Positions 4,626 to 20,309 of a stretch of 21,197 nt of DNA are shown here, piece by piece. Made by a program: the position numbers and the translations under genes. The DNA is from a virus. The notes under the pieces were generated by a model. It did no database searches. It saw only the letters and a program-made list of their open reading frames with translations, and was not told the origin of the DNA. Location: IMG/VR virus record IMGVR_UViG_3300021956_000091, positions 1-21,197 of that record; one strand, written 5' to 3'. How positions within the stretch are numbered: position 1 is the first letter of the stretch; each line of letters begins with the position of its first letter.

Positions 4626-4778
4626 TTACGCTGCCGCTTCTTCTTTGGGCGGCTCGACTTGCGGCTGCGCTTGGCTTTGAATCTTCACGATCAAAGGAAA
4701 GCAACCCGATTTCGAGGGCAAAGAACCCAAAACTTCAAGAATAAAATTTACTTCATTAACTTCTAATTCCAGCTTCAT
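4626..4778 (-). CDS. Small soluble protein of unknown function in the lysis cassette, 50 aa
   Basis: The frame starts at ATG 4778 and ends at TAA 4626. An AAGGAG sequence lies about eight bases upstream, inside the 3' end of the homing endonuclease gene. The protein starts MKLELEVNEVNFILEVLGSL (1-20), continues LPSKSGCFPLIVKIQSQA, and ends in a Pro/Glu/Ala tail (VEPPKEEAAA). No membrane segment is visible. I recall similar 50-70 aa proteins with an L-E-x-x-E-V-N-x-I-L-x-x-L-G pattern beside phage lysis genes, but no function is known to me. It shares four bases (ATGA) with the endonuclease stop. Confidence 0.7.
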   Translation of the reverse strand: MKLELEVNEVNFILEVLGSLPSKSGCFPLIVKIQSQAQPQVEPPKEEAAA

Positions 4779-5509
4779 TTTGTTGCTCCTTTTCTATGGT
4801 GTGGACGACCTTCTGCTATACGCTTTGCTTCTCTTGCCTTTGCTGCAATTGACATATTTTTACGCGCTTCAGGTGTTGCTTTTGAACCTAATCGAGCTAA
4901 ACGTATTTTTTCACGAGCTTCCGGAGAAACGTATCGCCCCATTTGAACAATAGATAAATGGCGCTTACGTTCTTCAGATATTTTAATCCCTTTGGTATAA
5001 GTATTTCCTATTAATGCTTTACTGATCTTTGCCCTTGCTTCGTCGGAATGTTTTTTACCCAACATTGGTGCAAACCCCGGGCGTCCTTTCTTTTTATTAA
5101 CTTCGTCTGATTGTTTTTTTCCAATATTTGCCTGACGGAGAATTTCCCTTGCTTCCGCTGATTCCATTCTTTTTGCAGTGCGAATTGATTGTTCTTTCTT
5201 ATATTGTTCAGTATGTTTATAACCAGTAGTTCCATCACCGCCATTGGTTAAGTTATAGCCAAATGGGGATTTTGTGCAGAAAGCATGAATTGCCAATGGT
5301 TCAAGATACTTTATGTAATCAAAGTCACCTATTACAAGAACTTTTTTTTCAAATGATTCAAATCCATGATGACGAATTGCACGATATAAATAAGTATCAG
5401 TTCCGGCTTTTGCGTGTGCTTTGTGATTGTTCCATCTTAATTTGGCATTTTTTGCAATACCAATATATTGTTTTCCAGACGGAGATGTTAAGCAATACAA
5501 CTCAGCCAT
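4775..5509 (-). CDS. GIY-YIG homing endonuclease with NUMOD3-type repeats, 244 aa
   Basis: This is a mobile selfish endonuclease. The N-terminal GIY-YIG nuclease domain spans about 1-93: LYCLTSPSGKQYIG carries the modified GIY and the YIG (15-17). Arg25 and His29 match the spacing of the catalytic Arg27/His31 pair of I-TevI. Glu70 is the likely metal-binding glutamate and GYNLTNGGDG closes the domain. The C-terminal DNA-binding half has four NUMOD3-like helical repeats (SDEARAKISKALIGN, SEERKRHLSIVQMG, SPEAREKIRLARLG, TPEARKNMSIAAKA). The gene is visibly AT-richer than its neighbours, which indicates recent arrival. It sits between the holin-like and 50-aa lysis genes with overlaps of only one and four bases. 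No intron is evident, so it looks like a free-standing endonuclease. Confidence 0.92.
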   Translation of the reverse strand: MAELYCLTSPSGKQYIGIAKNAKLRWNNHKAHAKAGTDTYLYRAIRHHGFESFEKKVLVIGDFDYIKYLEPLAIHAFCTKSPFGYNLTNGGDGTTGYKHTEQYKKEQSIRTAKRMESAEAREILRQANIGKKQSDEVNKKKGRPGFAPMLGKKHSDEARAKISKALIGNTYTKGIKISEERKRHLSIVQMGRYVSPEAREKIRLARLGSKATPEARKNMSIAAKAREAKRIAEGRPHHRKGATK

Positions 5510-12405: not shown

Positions 12406-12747
12406 TCAGGGCTGGATCTCTATGCTGTCCAGATTGCCGTTGTTTTCCGGCGTCTGGTTGTTTTGCTGCGGAGAAATGACGTATCCGCCATAACCCGTCG
12501 TGATCAGGTTGTTCGGATCGACCGCAACGCTGACATCAGGACGCGGAAACCGAATCGTTATGCGTTCGGTTTTTCTGGCCGGCAAGCGATAGGGATCGAA
12601 CTGATCCGCGCACCCTTGGTCGCACACTTGCAGCCCGGGGAAATTGGGGTCGGAGCGCATCACCGCGTGCGGGCGTTTCATTTTGCATCGATCGCATACC
12701 GCAATCGCAATATCCGAATACCCTCTGGTGTCCAGAAATTTGGGCAT
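12406..12747 (-). CDS. Zinc-ribbon-like small protein, 113 aa
   Basis: I chose ATG 12747 because a GGAGG lies eight bases upstream; a longer in-frame start at 12825 would overlap the preceding gene and has no such site. The protein opens MPKFLDTRGYSDIAIAVCDR and has a CxxC pair (Cys18, Cys21) and a CxxxC pair (Cys42, Cys46) about 20 residues apart, as in a zinc ribbon. A conserved-looking DPYRLPARKTERITIRFPRP follows (about 51-70), and the end is Asn/Gln-rich and probably disordered. I recall similar small proteins with P-G-L-x-V-C and DPYRLPAR beside phage connector genes, but no known function. Position between adaptor-like and fibre genes suggests a virion or assembly role. Confidence 0.75.
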   Translation of the reverse strand: MPKFLDTRGYSDIAIAVCDRCKMKRPHAVMRSDPNFPGLQVCDQGCADQFDPYRLPARKTERITIRFPRPDVSVAVDPNNLITTGYGGYVISPQQNNQTPENNGNLDSIEIQP

Positions 12748-12793
12748 TACACAGTCCTCCCCCGAGCACCCAACGCAGCCTTCAATACAAATA

Positions 12794-13867
12794 TCAACGT
12801 GTATAACAAGAAATATTCGGCGCAAAGTAGATCGGAGATTTGTCGCGTTCTTCGGCCTCGGCCAGCGTCAGATACTTCTCGGACTGCGCTTCGAGGTATT
12901 GAATACGAGCCATGTCCACGCCGGGCAGCTCCAAGCTCATCCGGTGCGACAACATCATCTGCACCGCCTCATACCAGCGCTGCGGAATTTCAAGCTCGCC
13001 GTAAAGGTCGCCCACGTCCATGATCTGCCGCGAATACCAGACCGTCATCTGCACAAAAGTGTCAGACGGCACCGGCCACAACGTGATTTGCGCCTGCGGA
13101 ATGGTGCGATTGAGCCAATATTGAAACGGCTGGTTTGCGGTGAATTGTTTGTTCGGCAGGTTGGTGTAATCGTCTCGGTTCAGGCGCGCCATCGTAATTT
13201 CGGTGGAATTGTTGCCCAAAAAAAACTCACGCAAGGACAGCGTATTGCCACCAGTCTCACGAATTCTGTAAAACTCCACCGTCTGACCCGGCTCAATGTC
13301 ATACCAGATCCATTGATTATCGACCCACTCCGTCGCCCCGGGCGCTTTGAGAGTGTTCCACGTTAAACCATCGGCCGAATACTCAAAAACAACGTTGAAC
13401 GTCCCTGTCACGCCCGGCAAAATCCCAATCGAGCCAACATAAACAGGATTGTCGCCGCCGTAATCAACCGTAACGCTTCCGTCCGGCGCATTTTGCGTCA
13501 AAATCGTGTCAACGTTCTGGTCAAACGCGTTCTCAACAATCCCGCCATCGCTCGACACGTATCCGCCGGTGCTGTTCGGCGTCGGGCGGTTCATCTGACG
13601 ATACAACGCCTGCAAAACATCATTGCCGCCAACGGGCAAAAGGTAAACATATTGGTCAGCCTGCAGGCCGTAGACCTTCTTGTCGATCGCCCAATACTGA
13701 ATGCCGATGTTGATCAGGTTCGAGAGGGCAAAATAAAGCGACTCACGAGCGGACAGGACTTGCTCAGACGTCAATTCCTCGGCCAGCTTACCGCATCGAC
13801 GCGCACCGTGATCAATCAAGGTCTGAACCTTGATTACCGTTGTCCCGACCGTCCCTGAATAAGCCAT
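12794..13867 (-). CDS. Connector/adaptor-like structural protein with discoidin-like insertion, 357 aa
   Basis: The first 95 residues are helical (VIKVQTLIDHGARRCGKL, LYFALSNLINIGIQYWAIDK). The C-terminal 130 residues have MARLNRDDYTNLPNKQF, then ITLWPVPSDTFVQMTVWYSR, and a helical end RWYEAVQMMLSHRMSLEL. This resembles gp4/gp11-type connector proteins. Between them (about 100-220) lies a beta-rich block (SVTVDYGGDN, VVFEYSADGLTWNTLKA, FYRIRETGGNTLSLREFFLG) that reads like a galactose-binding, F5/8 discoidin-type domain. The whole plan (helices, beta with WPVP, helices) parallels the 211-aa adaptor near the left edge. Role at the portal-tail junction is inferred; the inserted domain could bind sugars on the virion surface. 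Confidence 0.7.
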   Translation of the reverse strand: MAYSGTVGTTVIKVQTLIDHGARRCGKLAEELTSEQVLSARESLYFALSNLINIGIQYWAIDKKVYGLQADQYVYLLPVGGNDVLQALYRQMNRPTPNSTGGYVSSDGGIVENAFDQNVDTILTQNAPDGSVTVDYGGDNPVYVGSIGILPGVTGTFNVVFEYSADGLTWNTLKAPGATEWVDNQWIWYDIEPGQTVEFYRIRETGGNTLSLREFFLGNNSTEITMARLNRDDYTNLPNKQFTANQPFQYWLNRTIPQAQITLWPVPSDTFVQMTVWYSRQIMDVGDLYGELEIPQRWYEAVQMMLSHRMSLELPGVDMARIQYLEAQSEKYLTLAEAEERDKSPIYFAPNISCYTR

Positions 13868-13874
13868 TTTTACC

Positions 13875-14417
13875 TCACCATCCTGAGCATTTCCACCGCT
13901 TCAACGATGCCTTTGCCCTCGGCGCATCGCCCGAGGCGTGCTTCACAACGCCCGACATCCGAGCGCAAAACGAGTCCTTGCGACTGCCGCCCTCGGGCTG
14001 CGGGGCCTTCAGGTGACTGCCCGTCTCACGATTATACTTCGCCCGACCTTTCGCGGTCAGTCCGGCACCACGCTCAACAGGTAATTTTTCTCCTCGACCA
14101 ACCGCAAGCGATACGCCGCCAGATTTCATTTTTGCGGTTTTCTCGGCCTGCTTGAACGCCTGCGCTGTGGGCGCGCCTTCTTGACCGGGCCGGCGCATCT
14201 TTTCACCAGAGCCTTCAGCAATTCTTTCACGCTTTGCATGAATGTTTGCATACAGGCCACCGCCATTTTTTTTATGTTCAGGAAGTTTTCCGTAGCTCTT
14301 TGTAGCTGAGGAAAACTCTTCACCCACAGAAGCAGGAATGCCAGTCTTTTTAGCCAGTTTTGGATTGTGCGCTACCGCTTGCATCAGGCGGTATTGAGCT
14401 TTGGACTTGGCCGGCAT
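13875..14417 (-). CDS. Basic K-x-GG protein with DUF6321-like C-terminus, 180 aa
   Basis: Three modules are visible. Residues 1-50 are Lys/Ala-rich (MPAKSKAQYRLMQAVAHNPK). Residues about 50-97 hold GGGLYANIHAKRERIAEGSG and EKMRRPGQEGAPTAQAFKQA, a segment I recall from many environmental phage proteins. Residues about 116-178 (GAGLTAKGRAKYNRETGSHL, RKDSFCARMSGVVKH, SLKRWKCSGW) match the DUF6321 pattern, including two cysteines (151 and 177). KKNGGG (49-54) and KMKSGG (96-101) repeat the K-x-GG motif that dominates the 370-aa protein two genes upstream. The protein is strongly basic and probably partly disordered. Function unknown; nucleic-acid or virion-interior association is a guess from charge. 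The start follows the previous stop by one base. Confidence 0.72.
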   Translation of the reverse strand: MPAKSKAQYRLMQAVAHNPKLAKKTGIPASVGEEFSSATKSYGKLPEHKKNGGGLYANIHAKRERIAEGSGEKMRRPGQEGAPTAQAFKQAEKTAKMKSGGVSLAVGRGEKLPVERGAGLTAKGRAKYNRETGSHLKAPQPEGGSRKDSFCARMSGVVKHASGDAPRAKASLKRWKCSGW

Positions 14418-14835: not shown

Positions 14836-14849
14836 ATTTTTCTCCGATT

Positions 14850-14873
14850 AAAAACAGGGGCCGAAGCCCCTGT
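14850..14873 (-). terminator. Intrinsic terminator with UUCG tetraloop
   Basis: On the minus strand the sequence reads ACAGGGGC, TTCG, GCCCCTGT, followed by TTTT and AA. The 8-bp stem is perfect, with a C(UUCG)G loop. It begins five bases after the stop of the 370-aa gene and ends about 14 bases before the ATG of the 138-aa gene. The T-tract lies only on the minus-strand side, so it terminates the head-gene transcript. Partial read-through would be needed to reach the tail and lysis genes unless an unseen promoter serves them. Confidence 0.88.
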
Positions 14874-14878
14874 CTGTT

Positions 14879-15991
14879 TCAGCGTTTGACTCGACCGCCG
14901 TTTTTCTTCTCAGGCGGAGAGACAGTCCGGCTCACTTCGCGCTCGGTGGTTGTTACGCCACCCAAGCCACGGAGCTTTTTCATCGCGCCGCGCACCAAGT
15001 TCATGGGGTTCATCATTTCACGCATGGCCCGATTCTCCGCGGTCTCGCGCTTGTAATGATCCTCATACCCCTTGGTCTCGCGGGCAGTTTGCTCATCAGC
15101 GACAGGGCCGCCGCCGTTCATGCGCCTACCGAAGCTGCTGTATGACTCGTTCGTATACATGCGGGCAGCTTTGCGGTTCGTCGCATTCTCGGCGTCGTTT
15201 GCGTTCAGCAGCTTTTGTTCGCCCGGGGTGACCCGACCTCCCTGCTTGAACGTGCCCGACAACTGATTGATGCTCACCGGAGTTGATGGTTTTTTGCGGC
15301 CTTGCGGCATTGCTACGGGGGCACCGCTGTCAACTTTTCCCCCCGTAGCAAAAGCTTTTTTTGCGGCACCACCCTTGCGGTAGCCACCGCCGTTTGCTTT
15401 TGCCACGCCACCAGTCGCATAACCACCGCCGTTGCCCATCTTCACGTCACCAGTCTTCGCCGGCGAACGATCGGGCTTTGCGGTATCCATTTTTGTCGAT
15501 CCCTTTTCCGACTTGATAATGCCGCCGGATTTGAAACCACCCTGACCATTTACCACACCACCGGTCGCCATCTTGCCGCCTTTTTTCAGCGACAATTTGG
15601 TTCCCTTGCCCCCTTTGTGCTCCTGAGCATCGTGCTGCTTCATGGCTTTCTTGATCATGGCCTTGTCTTGCGCCATGTCAGCCTTTCCGCCCTCTTTCAT
15701 CGGGGCAGTTGCCATCATGCGCGAGGCCTGACCGATCGGAGCGGCAGGGCCGGCACCAGCAGGCAGTCCACGCATTGCGCGACGGCGAGCCATCAGTGAG
15801 GGGCGCATCGGAGTCGCCGCGGGAGCAACGCCACCTCGAGCAGGCATTACAGGCATACCGCCATCGGCCATCTTTTTGTGACCGTTTTCGCCTTTGCCAT
15901 GCTTCATCGAAACATGACCGCCTTTTTTGAGCTTAAGCTCAACCGAAGGCTCGGTGGTCTCCATCTTGACCATTGGTTTGAATTGACCCAT
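14879..15991 (-). CDS. Lys/Gly-rich protein with about 18 GG motifs, 370 aa
   Basis: This is a low-complexity, strongly basic protein. GG doublets or triplets occur at about 18 places between residues 24 and 366, most often as K/M/T-x-GG followed by K, V, F or Y. Examples are LKKGGHV, MADGGMP, MKEGGKA, KMATGGVV, FKSGGII, YATGGVAKANGGGYRKGG, FKQGGRV and KKNGGRVKR at the very end. The central part (137-220) is the densest. Residues about 255-345 are less repetitive and helical (ENATNRKAARMYTNESYSSF, YEDHYKRETAENRAMREMMN). No enzyme motif, membrane segment or signal peptide is visible. Composition resembles a disordered nucleic-acid or structural binder, but function is unknown. It is the last gene before the terminator; an SD-like GGGG lies near its start. 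Confidence 0.75.
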   Translation of the reverse strand: MGQFKPMVKMETTEPSVELKLKKGGHVSMKHGKGENGHKKMADGGMPVMPARGGVAPAATPMRPSLMARRRAMRGLPAGAGPAAPIGQASRMMATAPMKEGGKADMAQDKAMIKKAMKQHDAQEHKGGKGTKLSLKKGGKMATGGVVNGQGGFKSGGIIKSEKGSTKMDTAKPDRSPAKTGDVKMGNGGGYATGGVAKANGGGYRKGGAAKKAFATGGKVDSGAPVAMPQGRKKPSTPVSINQLSGTFKQGGRVTPGEQKLLNANDAENATNRKAARMYTNESYSSFGRRMNGGGPVADEQTARETKGYEDHYKRETAENRAMREMMNPMNLVRGAMKKLRGLGGVTTTEREVSRTVSPPEKKNGGRVKR

Positions 15992-18921: not shown

Positions 18922-19881
18922 TTAGCTCCTGTGGTTTCGTGCGTCTTGCGCATAGCGCTTGATCATTTTTGCGCGTTTGACTGGGTCATCCCAGTAGCCG
19001 GCATCTTTCATTGCCCTCACCTGCTCGGGCTGTAACACGAAAGTGCCGCCTCCTGCTCTGCCGCCAACCGACTCGCGCTCCGATCCGGTCACAAAACTAC
19101 GGGGCCGCCTTCTGGACGTTGCCTCGTCTTGACCTTGAGTATAATGATGCGGTAACCGCTTTTGCAAGCGTTTGTCAAGCTCTTCCCAATAATCTTGGGT
19201 TTCGGGGTTCCAGCCCTCCGCCATTAGCTTGTTGTCAATGACCTTGGCGATCTGGCTGTCCTCGTCCTGACCGTTCGGGTCATACCACTCATTTTTCTCC
19301 ATCCAGCCATTGGCCAGCTTGATCAGCCGCGGGTTTGCCGCACCTGACTGATTGGCCGTCGCCTCGGATGCCCGCTGCTTGGCATTCCGCATGGCCTCCA
19401 CCTTGCGGCGACTGTCATACCACATTTCCTGCGCACGAGTGAAAGCCTCGCCGTCCGAGTTGTCGGTCGCCTCACGCATTTTCTGCGTGGCATACTGGAA
19501 GCGCATCTCCTCGTCTTCAATGGCTTTGTCCAAGCGGGCCAGATCCGAACTGAAGGTCTTGCGCTCGACCACCGACAGGCGATCCATCAGCTCCTGATTC
19601 TGCCGCTGCAGCAGCATCAGACGCTGATCTTTCTCCTCATTGGTCTTGCGGATGTAGTCCTTCTTCGCACGCCGGCGGGCACGCCGAGCAGCACGAACCG
19701 CATCGGTGTCGTCCGGATGATCTTCGTCGCCCTGATCGCCCTGAGCGTCAGCGCTATCACCCTGAACCTCACCGCCTTCGGCCGCCTCAACCTCCATGCC
19801 CTCGGGCAACTCGACGGTGGCCGAACCGTCTTTTTCCTCGACAACAGCAAGCGACTCTTCCTTGCCTTTTTCTTCACTCAT
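18922..19881 (-). CDS. Scaffolding-like coiled-coil protein, 319 aa
   Basis: This protein likely guides capsid assembly. Residues 1-60 are very acidic (Glu/Asp-rich, many Gly). A basic stretch RAARRARRRAKKDYIRK follows. Residues about 80-185 are a long charged helix, probably coiled coil (LMLLQRQNQELMDRLSVVER, LDKAIEDEEMRFQYATQKMR). The C-terminal end is basic and helical (KRAKMIKRYAQDARNHRS), as in many scaffold proteins whose C-terminus binds the capsid protein. The 'disordered-acidic, long helix, basic tail' plan and place between portal and capsid genes support scaffold. I see no protease motif. It shares an ATGA overlap with the GroES-like gene. Confidence 0.75.
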   Translation of the reverse strand: MSEEKGKEESLAVVEEKDGSATVELPEGMEVEAAEGGEVQGDSADAQGDQGDEDHPDDTDAVRAARRARRRAKKDYIRKTNEEKDQRLMLLQRQNQELMDRLSVVERKTFSSDLARLDKAIEDEEMRFQYATQKMREATDNSDGEAFTRAQEMWYDSRRKVEAMRNAKQRASEATANQSGAANPRLIKLANGWMEKNEWYDPNGQDEDSQIAKVIDNKLMAEGWNPETQDYWEELDKRLQKRLPHHYTQGQDEATSRRRPRSFVTGSERESVGGRAGGGTFVLQPEQVRAMKDAGYWDDPVKRAKMIKRYAQDARNHRS

Positions 19882-20309
19882 ATGAAAGCCCTCATAGCAA
19901 GCGGATCACCTGTGACCTTTGCAATCACCTCGTGATCATTCAGGATCATGAACAACGCAGGATCTTCGTCACGCGACTCGTTCGGCACCGTAACCTCCCA
20001 CCGATCGCCGCCCCACTTCGGGACGCGAATATAGTCGCCTGCTGCGCACCATGACCCCTCGGGCCACGGCTGCATGGTTTCGCGGTGTCGAAAGGCCAGA
20101 GGGCCGATCTCAATCACGCGTGCCACCATGTTGTTCCACTTCTCGGTTTCTTTGGTCTCTTCGACCAAAACGATTCCCGCGCTCGTCACCTTTTTTTTGG
20201 TTCGACGGAGTTGCACCAAAATGCGTCCGCCAAGGGGCTTCGCACCGGGATCTACGCTCGGAAATGCCCAAGCTATCTCAGCTTCGTTAGAAGCTACCGG
20301 TTCATTCAT
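19878..20309 (-). CDS. GroES-like co-chaperonin (Cpn10 fold), 143 aa
   Basis: This is a phage homologue of GroES, expected to cap the host GroEL ring, as T4 gp31 does for capsid folding. The GroES pattern is clear. PLGGRILVQLRRTKKK (about 25-40) is the first strand, and SAGIVLVEETKETEKW (43-58) is the mobile loop that would contact GroEL. VARVIEIGP (62-70), GDYIRVPKWGGDRWEV (91-106) and FMILNDHEVIAKVTGD (120-135) follow the standard order. It has an N-terminal extension of about 24 residues and a longer mid-insertion (FRHRETMQPWPEGSWCAA) than GroES. No GroEL gene is in the window. Location between portal and scaffold genes fits a capsid-folding job. The start overlaps the 59-aa gene by eight bases. 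Confidence 0.85.
   Translation of the reverse strand: MNEPVASNEAEIAWAFPSVDPGAKPLGGRILVQLRRTKKKVTSAGIVLVEETKETEKWNNMVARVIEIGPLAFRHRETMQPWPEGSWCAAGDYIRVPKWGGDRWEVTVPNESRDEDPALFMILNDHEVIAKVTGDPLAMRAFI

Follow-up and report, generated by a model that had tools for sequence, protein, structure and literature searches.

What is the role of the strongly basic protein, rich in Gly-Gly (GG) pairs, that is encoded two genes after the major capsid protein (MCP) in this phage? We examined the gene, here called KGG, in the window, which spans a complete virus record (21,197 bases). We conclude that it is a real, uncharacterised protein family rather than junk sequence, because its GG motifs are under strong selection and its relatives nearly all end in cysteine. 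Three features define the locus:

14879 to 15991, minus strand: the whole KGG gene, supported by its open reading frame, a GG excess over shuffled sequences, a dN/dS of 0.14 and its relatives
14849 to 14873, minus strand: terminator-like hairpin ACAGGGGC-UUCG-GCCCCUGU (GGGGC-UUCG-GCCCC), then TTTTT, just after the stop codon
16823 to 17737, minus strand: the MCP gene (Pfam Phage_capsid_4, E = 2.5e-12; Mu-like gpT)

Relatives of the KGG protein are encoded by at least 596 IMG/VR stretches, and we used two samples of relatives. We aligned 61 members taken from the best 80 matches, an alignment that therefore leans to close relatives. We also assembled 113 non-redundant relatives, being 80%-identity representatives among the matches listed; all carry an N-terminal DNA pattern, so this set is unusable for judging the constancy of the N terminus. 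The net charge of these 113 relatives ranges from +23 to +50. In the phage collection, the only record with a KGG protein is MW202545 (Manatee Spring), where it is annotated “hypothetical protein”. Three further relatives lie on contigs binned into bacterial metagenome-assembled genomes; these are likely phage contigs that carry little information on the host.

The family has no name in the libraries that we searched. Neither the KGG protein nor the 61-member profile yielded anything usable in Pfam, PHROGs or PDB sequences, and the annotated relatives are hypothetical proteins only. The window's protein hits no Pfam family at E up to 1 and matches neither PF19846 (DUF6321) nor PF20106 (DUF6496). 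Open-licence papers on DUF6321, on DUF6496 and on phage proteins that are rich in glycine or have a C-terminal cysteine did not include one on the family. The Stress-induced KGG repeat family (GsiB-type) has frequent KGG triplets, and it shares the name and these triplets with the KGG protein; its Pfam model matched neither the window's protein at E up to 1 nor the 61 members at 0.1.

The first-pass annotation described a full-length, well-framed gene of strongly basic product at the end of the head operon, and these properties hold. The reading frame runs on the minus strand from an ATG at 15991 to a TGA ending at 14879. It encodes 370 amino acids with a computed net charge of +40 and a pI of about 10.5, and Cys and Trp are absent. 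An AGGGGAA string, similar to a Shine-Dalgarno sequence, can be read 5′ of the start codon; such a string precedes the gene in 112/113 relatives. The gene order is stable (portal, GroES, scaffold-like, p180, p199, MCP, p248, KGG, p138 or others, DUF6321, adaptor) and, together with the hairpin, fits a site at the end of the head operon. The hairpin folds at −21 kcal/mol (z −4.0, over a 46-nt stretch), and a relaxed form of its pattern follows the stop codon in 103 of the 113 relatives.

GG runs are genuinely over-represented. The window's protein has 18, exceeding the maximum of 16 (mean 8.0) among 10,000 composition-preserving shuffles of the same protein. It had been described as built around about 18 K-x-GG motifs; the 18 GG runs stand, but exact K-x-GG occurs at only six of them (shuffle mean 1.15, maximum 6). 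Across 1122 GG runs in the family, the motif is [YFLM]-[KA]-x-GG-x-[VAI]. Position −3 favors a large hydrophobic residue (Y 20%, M 19%, L 13%, F 10%), position −2 favors K (43%) or A (26%), and position +2 favors V or A. Position −3 is nearly always Y or F at the five core sites that are conserved best, GG 156, 194, 207, 217 and 251 of the window. The window's protein has both these core [YF][KA]xGG sites and the location two genes after MCP. A double-glycine leader, as in C39 substrates, was rejected as GG recurs 18 times along the chain rather than once after a leader; no C39-type peptidase was found among the MW202545 late proteins scanned.

The GG positions are under strong purifying selection. 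Among the 61 aligned members, the majority residue accounts for a mean fraction of 0.85 at GG residues outside the first 30 positions, against 0.55 at the rest (Mann-Whitney p = 7e-11). pN/pS is 0.054 for GG codons and 0.25 elsewhere in the gene, and the median pairwise dN/dS is 0.14 over 182 mutually non-independent pairs. Several of our statistics count related sequences as separate, and a tree count and the C-terminal types serve as checks. The earlier description had taken the motifs to hint at selection, not drift, and had proposed comparing GG with linker positions, and synonymous with non-synonymous rates, in homologues. Both comparisons support selection, since GG positions are conserved while linkers vary and GG pN/pS is low. 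Low-complexity drift without function would account for the biased composition (G 16%, K 12%) and for the length variation among relatives. However, it is contradicted by the conservation of GG columns far above linkers, by the low GG pN/pS and by the conserved N terminus and terminal Cys, and we consider it scarcely credible.

Conservation extends to the arrangement of some motifs. GGs 24, 101, 156, 194, 207, 217, 251 and 365 of the window are family-wide, while 188, 201, 293 and 344 are not. Spacing is identical for 127-138 and 151-156 wherever a member has both sites, differs by a few residues for 207-217 and 217-251, and is loose elsewhere. Such spacing bears on the idea that the protein is a precursor that a viral protease cleaves behind its GG sites into small basic peptides, as happens to adenovirus core proteins. 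The many xGG sites along a basic chain would suit this idea, but both the spacing and other domains are preserved, as though the chain were needed in its entirety. Furthermore, no fitting protease was found among the MW202545 late proteins scanned, and the conserved hydrophobic residue at −3 from the first G corresponds to P5, whereas the adenain consensus has a hydrophobic residue at P4. We thus regard such processing as very improbable.

The protein can be divided into the following segments, with helices taken from an AlphaFold2 (AF2) model:

15917 to 15991, minus strand: residues 1-25, signature MGQFKPMVKMxTTEPSVELKLKKGG, near-invariant in the A2 set
15575 to 15694, minus strand: residues 100-139, predicted helix (AF2) at 106-124 with GG at either end
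15338 to 15571, minus strand: residues 141-218, predicted disordered core, where GG motifs are densest (FKSGG, YATGG, YRKGG, FATGG)
15236 to 15262, minus strand: residues 244-252, motif LSGTFKQGG, marked by the conservation of GG 251
14969 to 15226, minus strand: residues 256-341, C-terminal helices predicted by AF2 at 256-284, 296-327 and 329-341
14882 to 14908, minus strand: residues 362-370, tail KKNGGRVKR, a tail that is Cys-ended in 97/113 relatives

The window's protein has the family's N-terminal FKPMVKM...TTEP...LKLKKGG segment, as defined by invariant columns in A2, a set partly selected on the N-terminal signature. In MCP-anchored loci, which were not selected on the N terminus, FKPMVKM is kept and residues 2-4 vary. 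GGs 156, 194, 207 and 217 are conserved in 95-100% of the 61 members, with Y/F at −3; GG 251 is present in 100% of them, and its −3 residue is always Y or F. The module at residues 100-139 is 51% identical over 43 aa to residues 479-519 of a sister-phage protein, L411 (E = 9e-6, from a single comparison). The C-terminal helix region is poorly conserved, being replaced or missing in several members. AF2, run on the 61-row alignment, gave a model of low confidence (mean pLDDT 53.5, pTM 0.18). It predicts a disordered protein with a few helices: those listed above and one at 66-74. The GG core is modeled as disordered, with pLDDT mostly below 50 at residues 141-218.

The family's terminal cysteine is our main new finding, and goes beyond the first-pass annotation. 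Cys occupies the exact C terminus in 97 of the 113 relatives, compared with 0.076% of other positions, and is the protein's only Cys in 78/113. The last GG lies 0-4 residues before it in 95/97. Terminal Cys codons include both TGC and TGT, and all three stop codons (TGA, TAA and TAG) are used, pointing to selection at the level of the amino acid. On the same grounds, we rejected a nucleotide-level cause, such as a fixed signal in the DNA at the stop codon. Cys-ended proteins are found in all 12 C-terminal clusters, even though several members have a replaced or missing C-terminal domain. Among them are short forms whose chain stops right behind a core motif that is internal in other members (LAGTYKRGGEVC, GGFKKGGAAKKC). 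We also built a tree that leaves out the last four residues; on it, 16 changes are needed to account for the 16 non-Cys members, so no clade has lost the terminal Cys as a group. In the window, whose protein is one of these 16, the last codon (14884-14882) is CGC, encoding Arg, where a sequencing error is possible; the nearest relative (L001) has TGC. A single, exactly C-terminal Cys is common in the family and is not required for membership, and the window's protein is without it.

The KGG gene is constant within one phage clade. Among loci fetched via MCP, and hence not chosen for the KGG gene, it is present in 65/65 at ≥90% MCP identity, 6/7 at 80-90% and 0/13 at 70-80%. It is therefore not tied universally to this capsid type. 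The gene is missing from Caulobacter phage RW, whose MCP is 76% identical, and from other phages with 70-80% MCP identity, so the capsid type in general does not need it. This distribution bears on whether the protein is an assembly factor that leaves the virion, that is, a scaffold- or chaperone-like disordered protein gathering head proteins via its GG motifs. Its gene shares a block with MCP and a scaffold-like protein and always accompanies the same MCP clade, and both disorder and helices are predicted, as such a role would have it. Nevertheless, a separate scaffold-like gene already precedes MCP, sister phages at 70-80% MCP identity manage without the KGG gene, and the reducing cytoplasm offers no easy explanation for a terminal Cys. 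An assembly role is therefore, in our view, unlikely.

The window contains other genes of note. A GroES-like co-chaperonin gene (19878-20309, minus strand) precedes the scaffold and MCP genes and is so annotated in most phages sharing this MCP. The 12406-12804 product (minus strand), encoded between the adaptor and the tail fibre in nearly all relatives, is small, has CxxC pairs and may be a zinc ribbon. The N terminus of the 4775-5509 product (minus strand; LYCLTSPSGKQYIGIA) resembles, by eye, a GIY-YIG homing endonuclease. Its kin are found after the adaptor in L007, L011, L042, L043 and L025 and after p180 in L080, scattered late-operon sites as expected of a mobile gene. We found no convincing solved relative of MCP or the adaptor.

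KGG is one of several basic GG proteins in these phages. Its closest annotated counterpart, UOF78453 (MW202545, Manatee Spring phage ctpbd312), is a homologue at the same site after MCP and p248, with the same N terminus, 19 GG runs, a net charge of +44 and the end GGPAKC. It differs in its length of 449 aa and in extra repeat units. A second GG protein is encoded nearby in the window:

13875 to 14417, minus strand: DUF6321 protein with two GG motifs and a near-C-terminal Cys (RWKCSGW); PF19846, E = 4.8e-16

Both the GG motif and the near-terminal Cys are found across this neighbor's cluster. DUF6321 proteins (PF19846) are widespread in cyanophages and pelagiphages and resemble KGG in being small, basic and encoded in the late or head region, with a GG motif and Cys at or near the C terminus. 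However, they have their own conserved SFCAR...RWxC domain and no detectable homology with the KGG protein. Residues 1-48 of the window's DUF6321 protein (MPAKSKAQYRLMQAVAHNP...) match two PHROGs labeled virion structural protein, as well as short proteins from phiKZ-like jumbo phages (201phi2-1 gp383, SL2_175). In the portion of the P-SCSP1u cryo-EM paper considered here, models are named for capsid, portal, adaptor, nozzle and fibre only, and the small DUF6321 genes go without mention, a weak negative (PMC10575957).

In loci of the window's clade, [YFMLW][KAR]xGG occurs 10.4 times per KGG protein against 0.37 expected, and 1.14 times per DUF6321 protein against 0.07. A third protein enriched for it is small and unnamed; MCP, the adaptor and p248 contain no such motif. 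None of 70 other ORF clusters is Cys-ended in at least half of its members; class-level clustering merged the KGG and DUF6321 groups and was hence used for the control value only. Several sister phages (74-80% MCP identity) encode other basic GG-motif proteins, some with DUF6496 (PF20106), that end in MYGGGKC, MPKGGKC, MPKGGKSC or NGGKVGC, a set of under ten proteins noticed after the fact. These DUF6496 proteins differ from KGG in their N terminus and in the DUF6496 domain itself, although one has the helix module of KGG residues 100-139. Another sister-phage GG protein that we compared has no homology to KGG. These observations suggest, short of proof, that head-region proteins unrelated to one another have a short motif and a tail in common. 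The first-pass annotation's view that the composition is unusual for a phage late protein is thus only partly sustained: the family is unnamed in the libraries searched, but these phages and their sister phages encode further basic proteins with GG motifs.

Some further small proteins were recorded alongside. Those at L083:12365-13051, L083:13311-13748 and L018:7425-8447 are small, basic late proteins with the C-terminal signature GGKINLxxCxVST...KNPNW, and the two from L083 gave nothing convincing in Pfam or PHROGs. A 100-aa sister-phage GG protein (L394:7083-7385) has a sub-threshold Pfam match to Peptidase_C70 (E = 0.0058), which is probably due to chance.

Our preferred, still tentative, reading is that the KGG protein is a late, head-associated, intrinsically disordered polycation acting as a multivalent tether with GG stickers and a terminal thiol. 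The constant N-terminal segment would dock one end. Flexible basic linkers would connect the [YF][KA]xGG motifs, which would serve as repeated stickers for packaged DNA or the capsid lining. The C-terminal GG-x(0-4)-Cys of the family would provide a thiol at the end of the chain; its simplest use would be an intermolecular disulfide, formed when the particle meets oxidising surroundings, and an anchored end would be an alternative. We infer the virion location, the docking, the DNA or capsid binding and the thiol's role. The stable site between MCP/p248 and the adaptor favors such a tether, as do the gene's presence in every locus at ≥90% MCP identity, purifying selection that is strongest on GG codons and on the Y/F three residues before GG, the terminal Cys in most relatives and the motif enrichment in the neighboring DUF6321 protein. 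Predicted disorder, charge and conserved Y/F positions together would also fit. Against it stand the window's own protein, without a terminal Cys, and the phages with 70-80% identical MCPs that lack the gene. High positive charge, predicted disorder and late-operon position would also suit a head-packaged protein that leaves the particle with the DNA and works early in the host, for example by protecting or organising the incoming genome. However, a separate block of large late proteins in MW202545, with a transglycosylase, is the more usual place for such proteins, and we rate ejection, too, as unlikely.

The tether reading can be carried further. Protamines and adenovirus core proteins are basic and pack sperm or viral DNA, and protamines use Cys for disulfide cross-links. 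KGG resembles them in composition only, without homology; it differs from them in being Lys/Gly-rich with, in the family, a single terminal Cys. It is conceivable, though doubtful, that several head-region proteins of phages, without being homologous, have arrived at the same design, in which a disordered polycation bears [YF][KA]xGG stickers and a single thiol at its C terminus and acts as a redox-switched lock. Such a lock would be cross-linked in the oxidising outside world and freed in the reducing host cytoplasm, a protamine-like principle of which we found no description for phages.

The late operons of uncultured phages contain many basic, GG-rich “hypothetical proteins”. For one such family, we show strong selection, sticker positions that can be defined and a terminal Cys that is retained. 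Should the terminal thiol prove to work in the particle, it would be relevant to the way in which phage heads are stabilised and opened.
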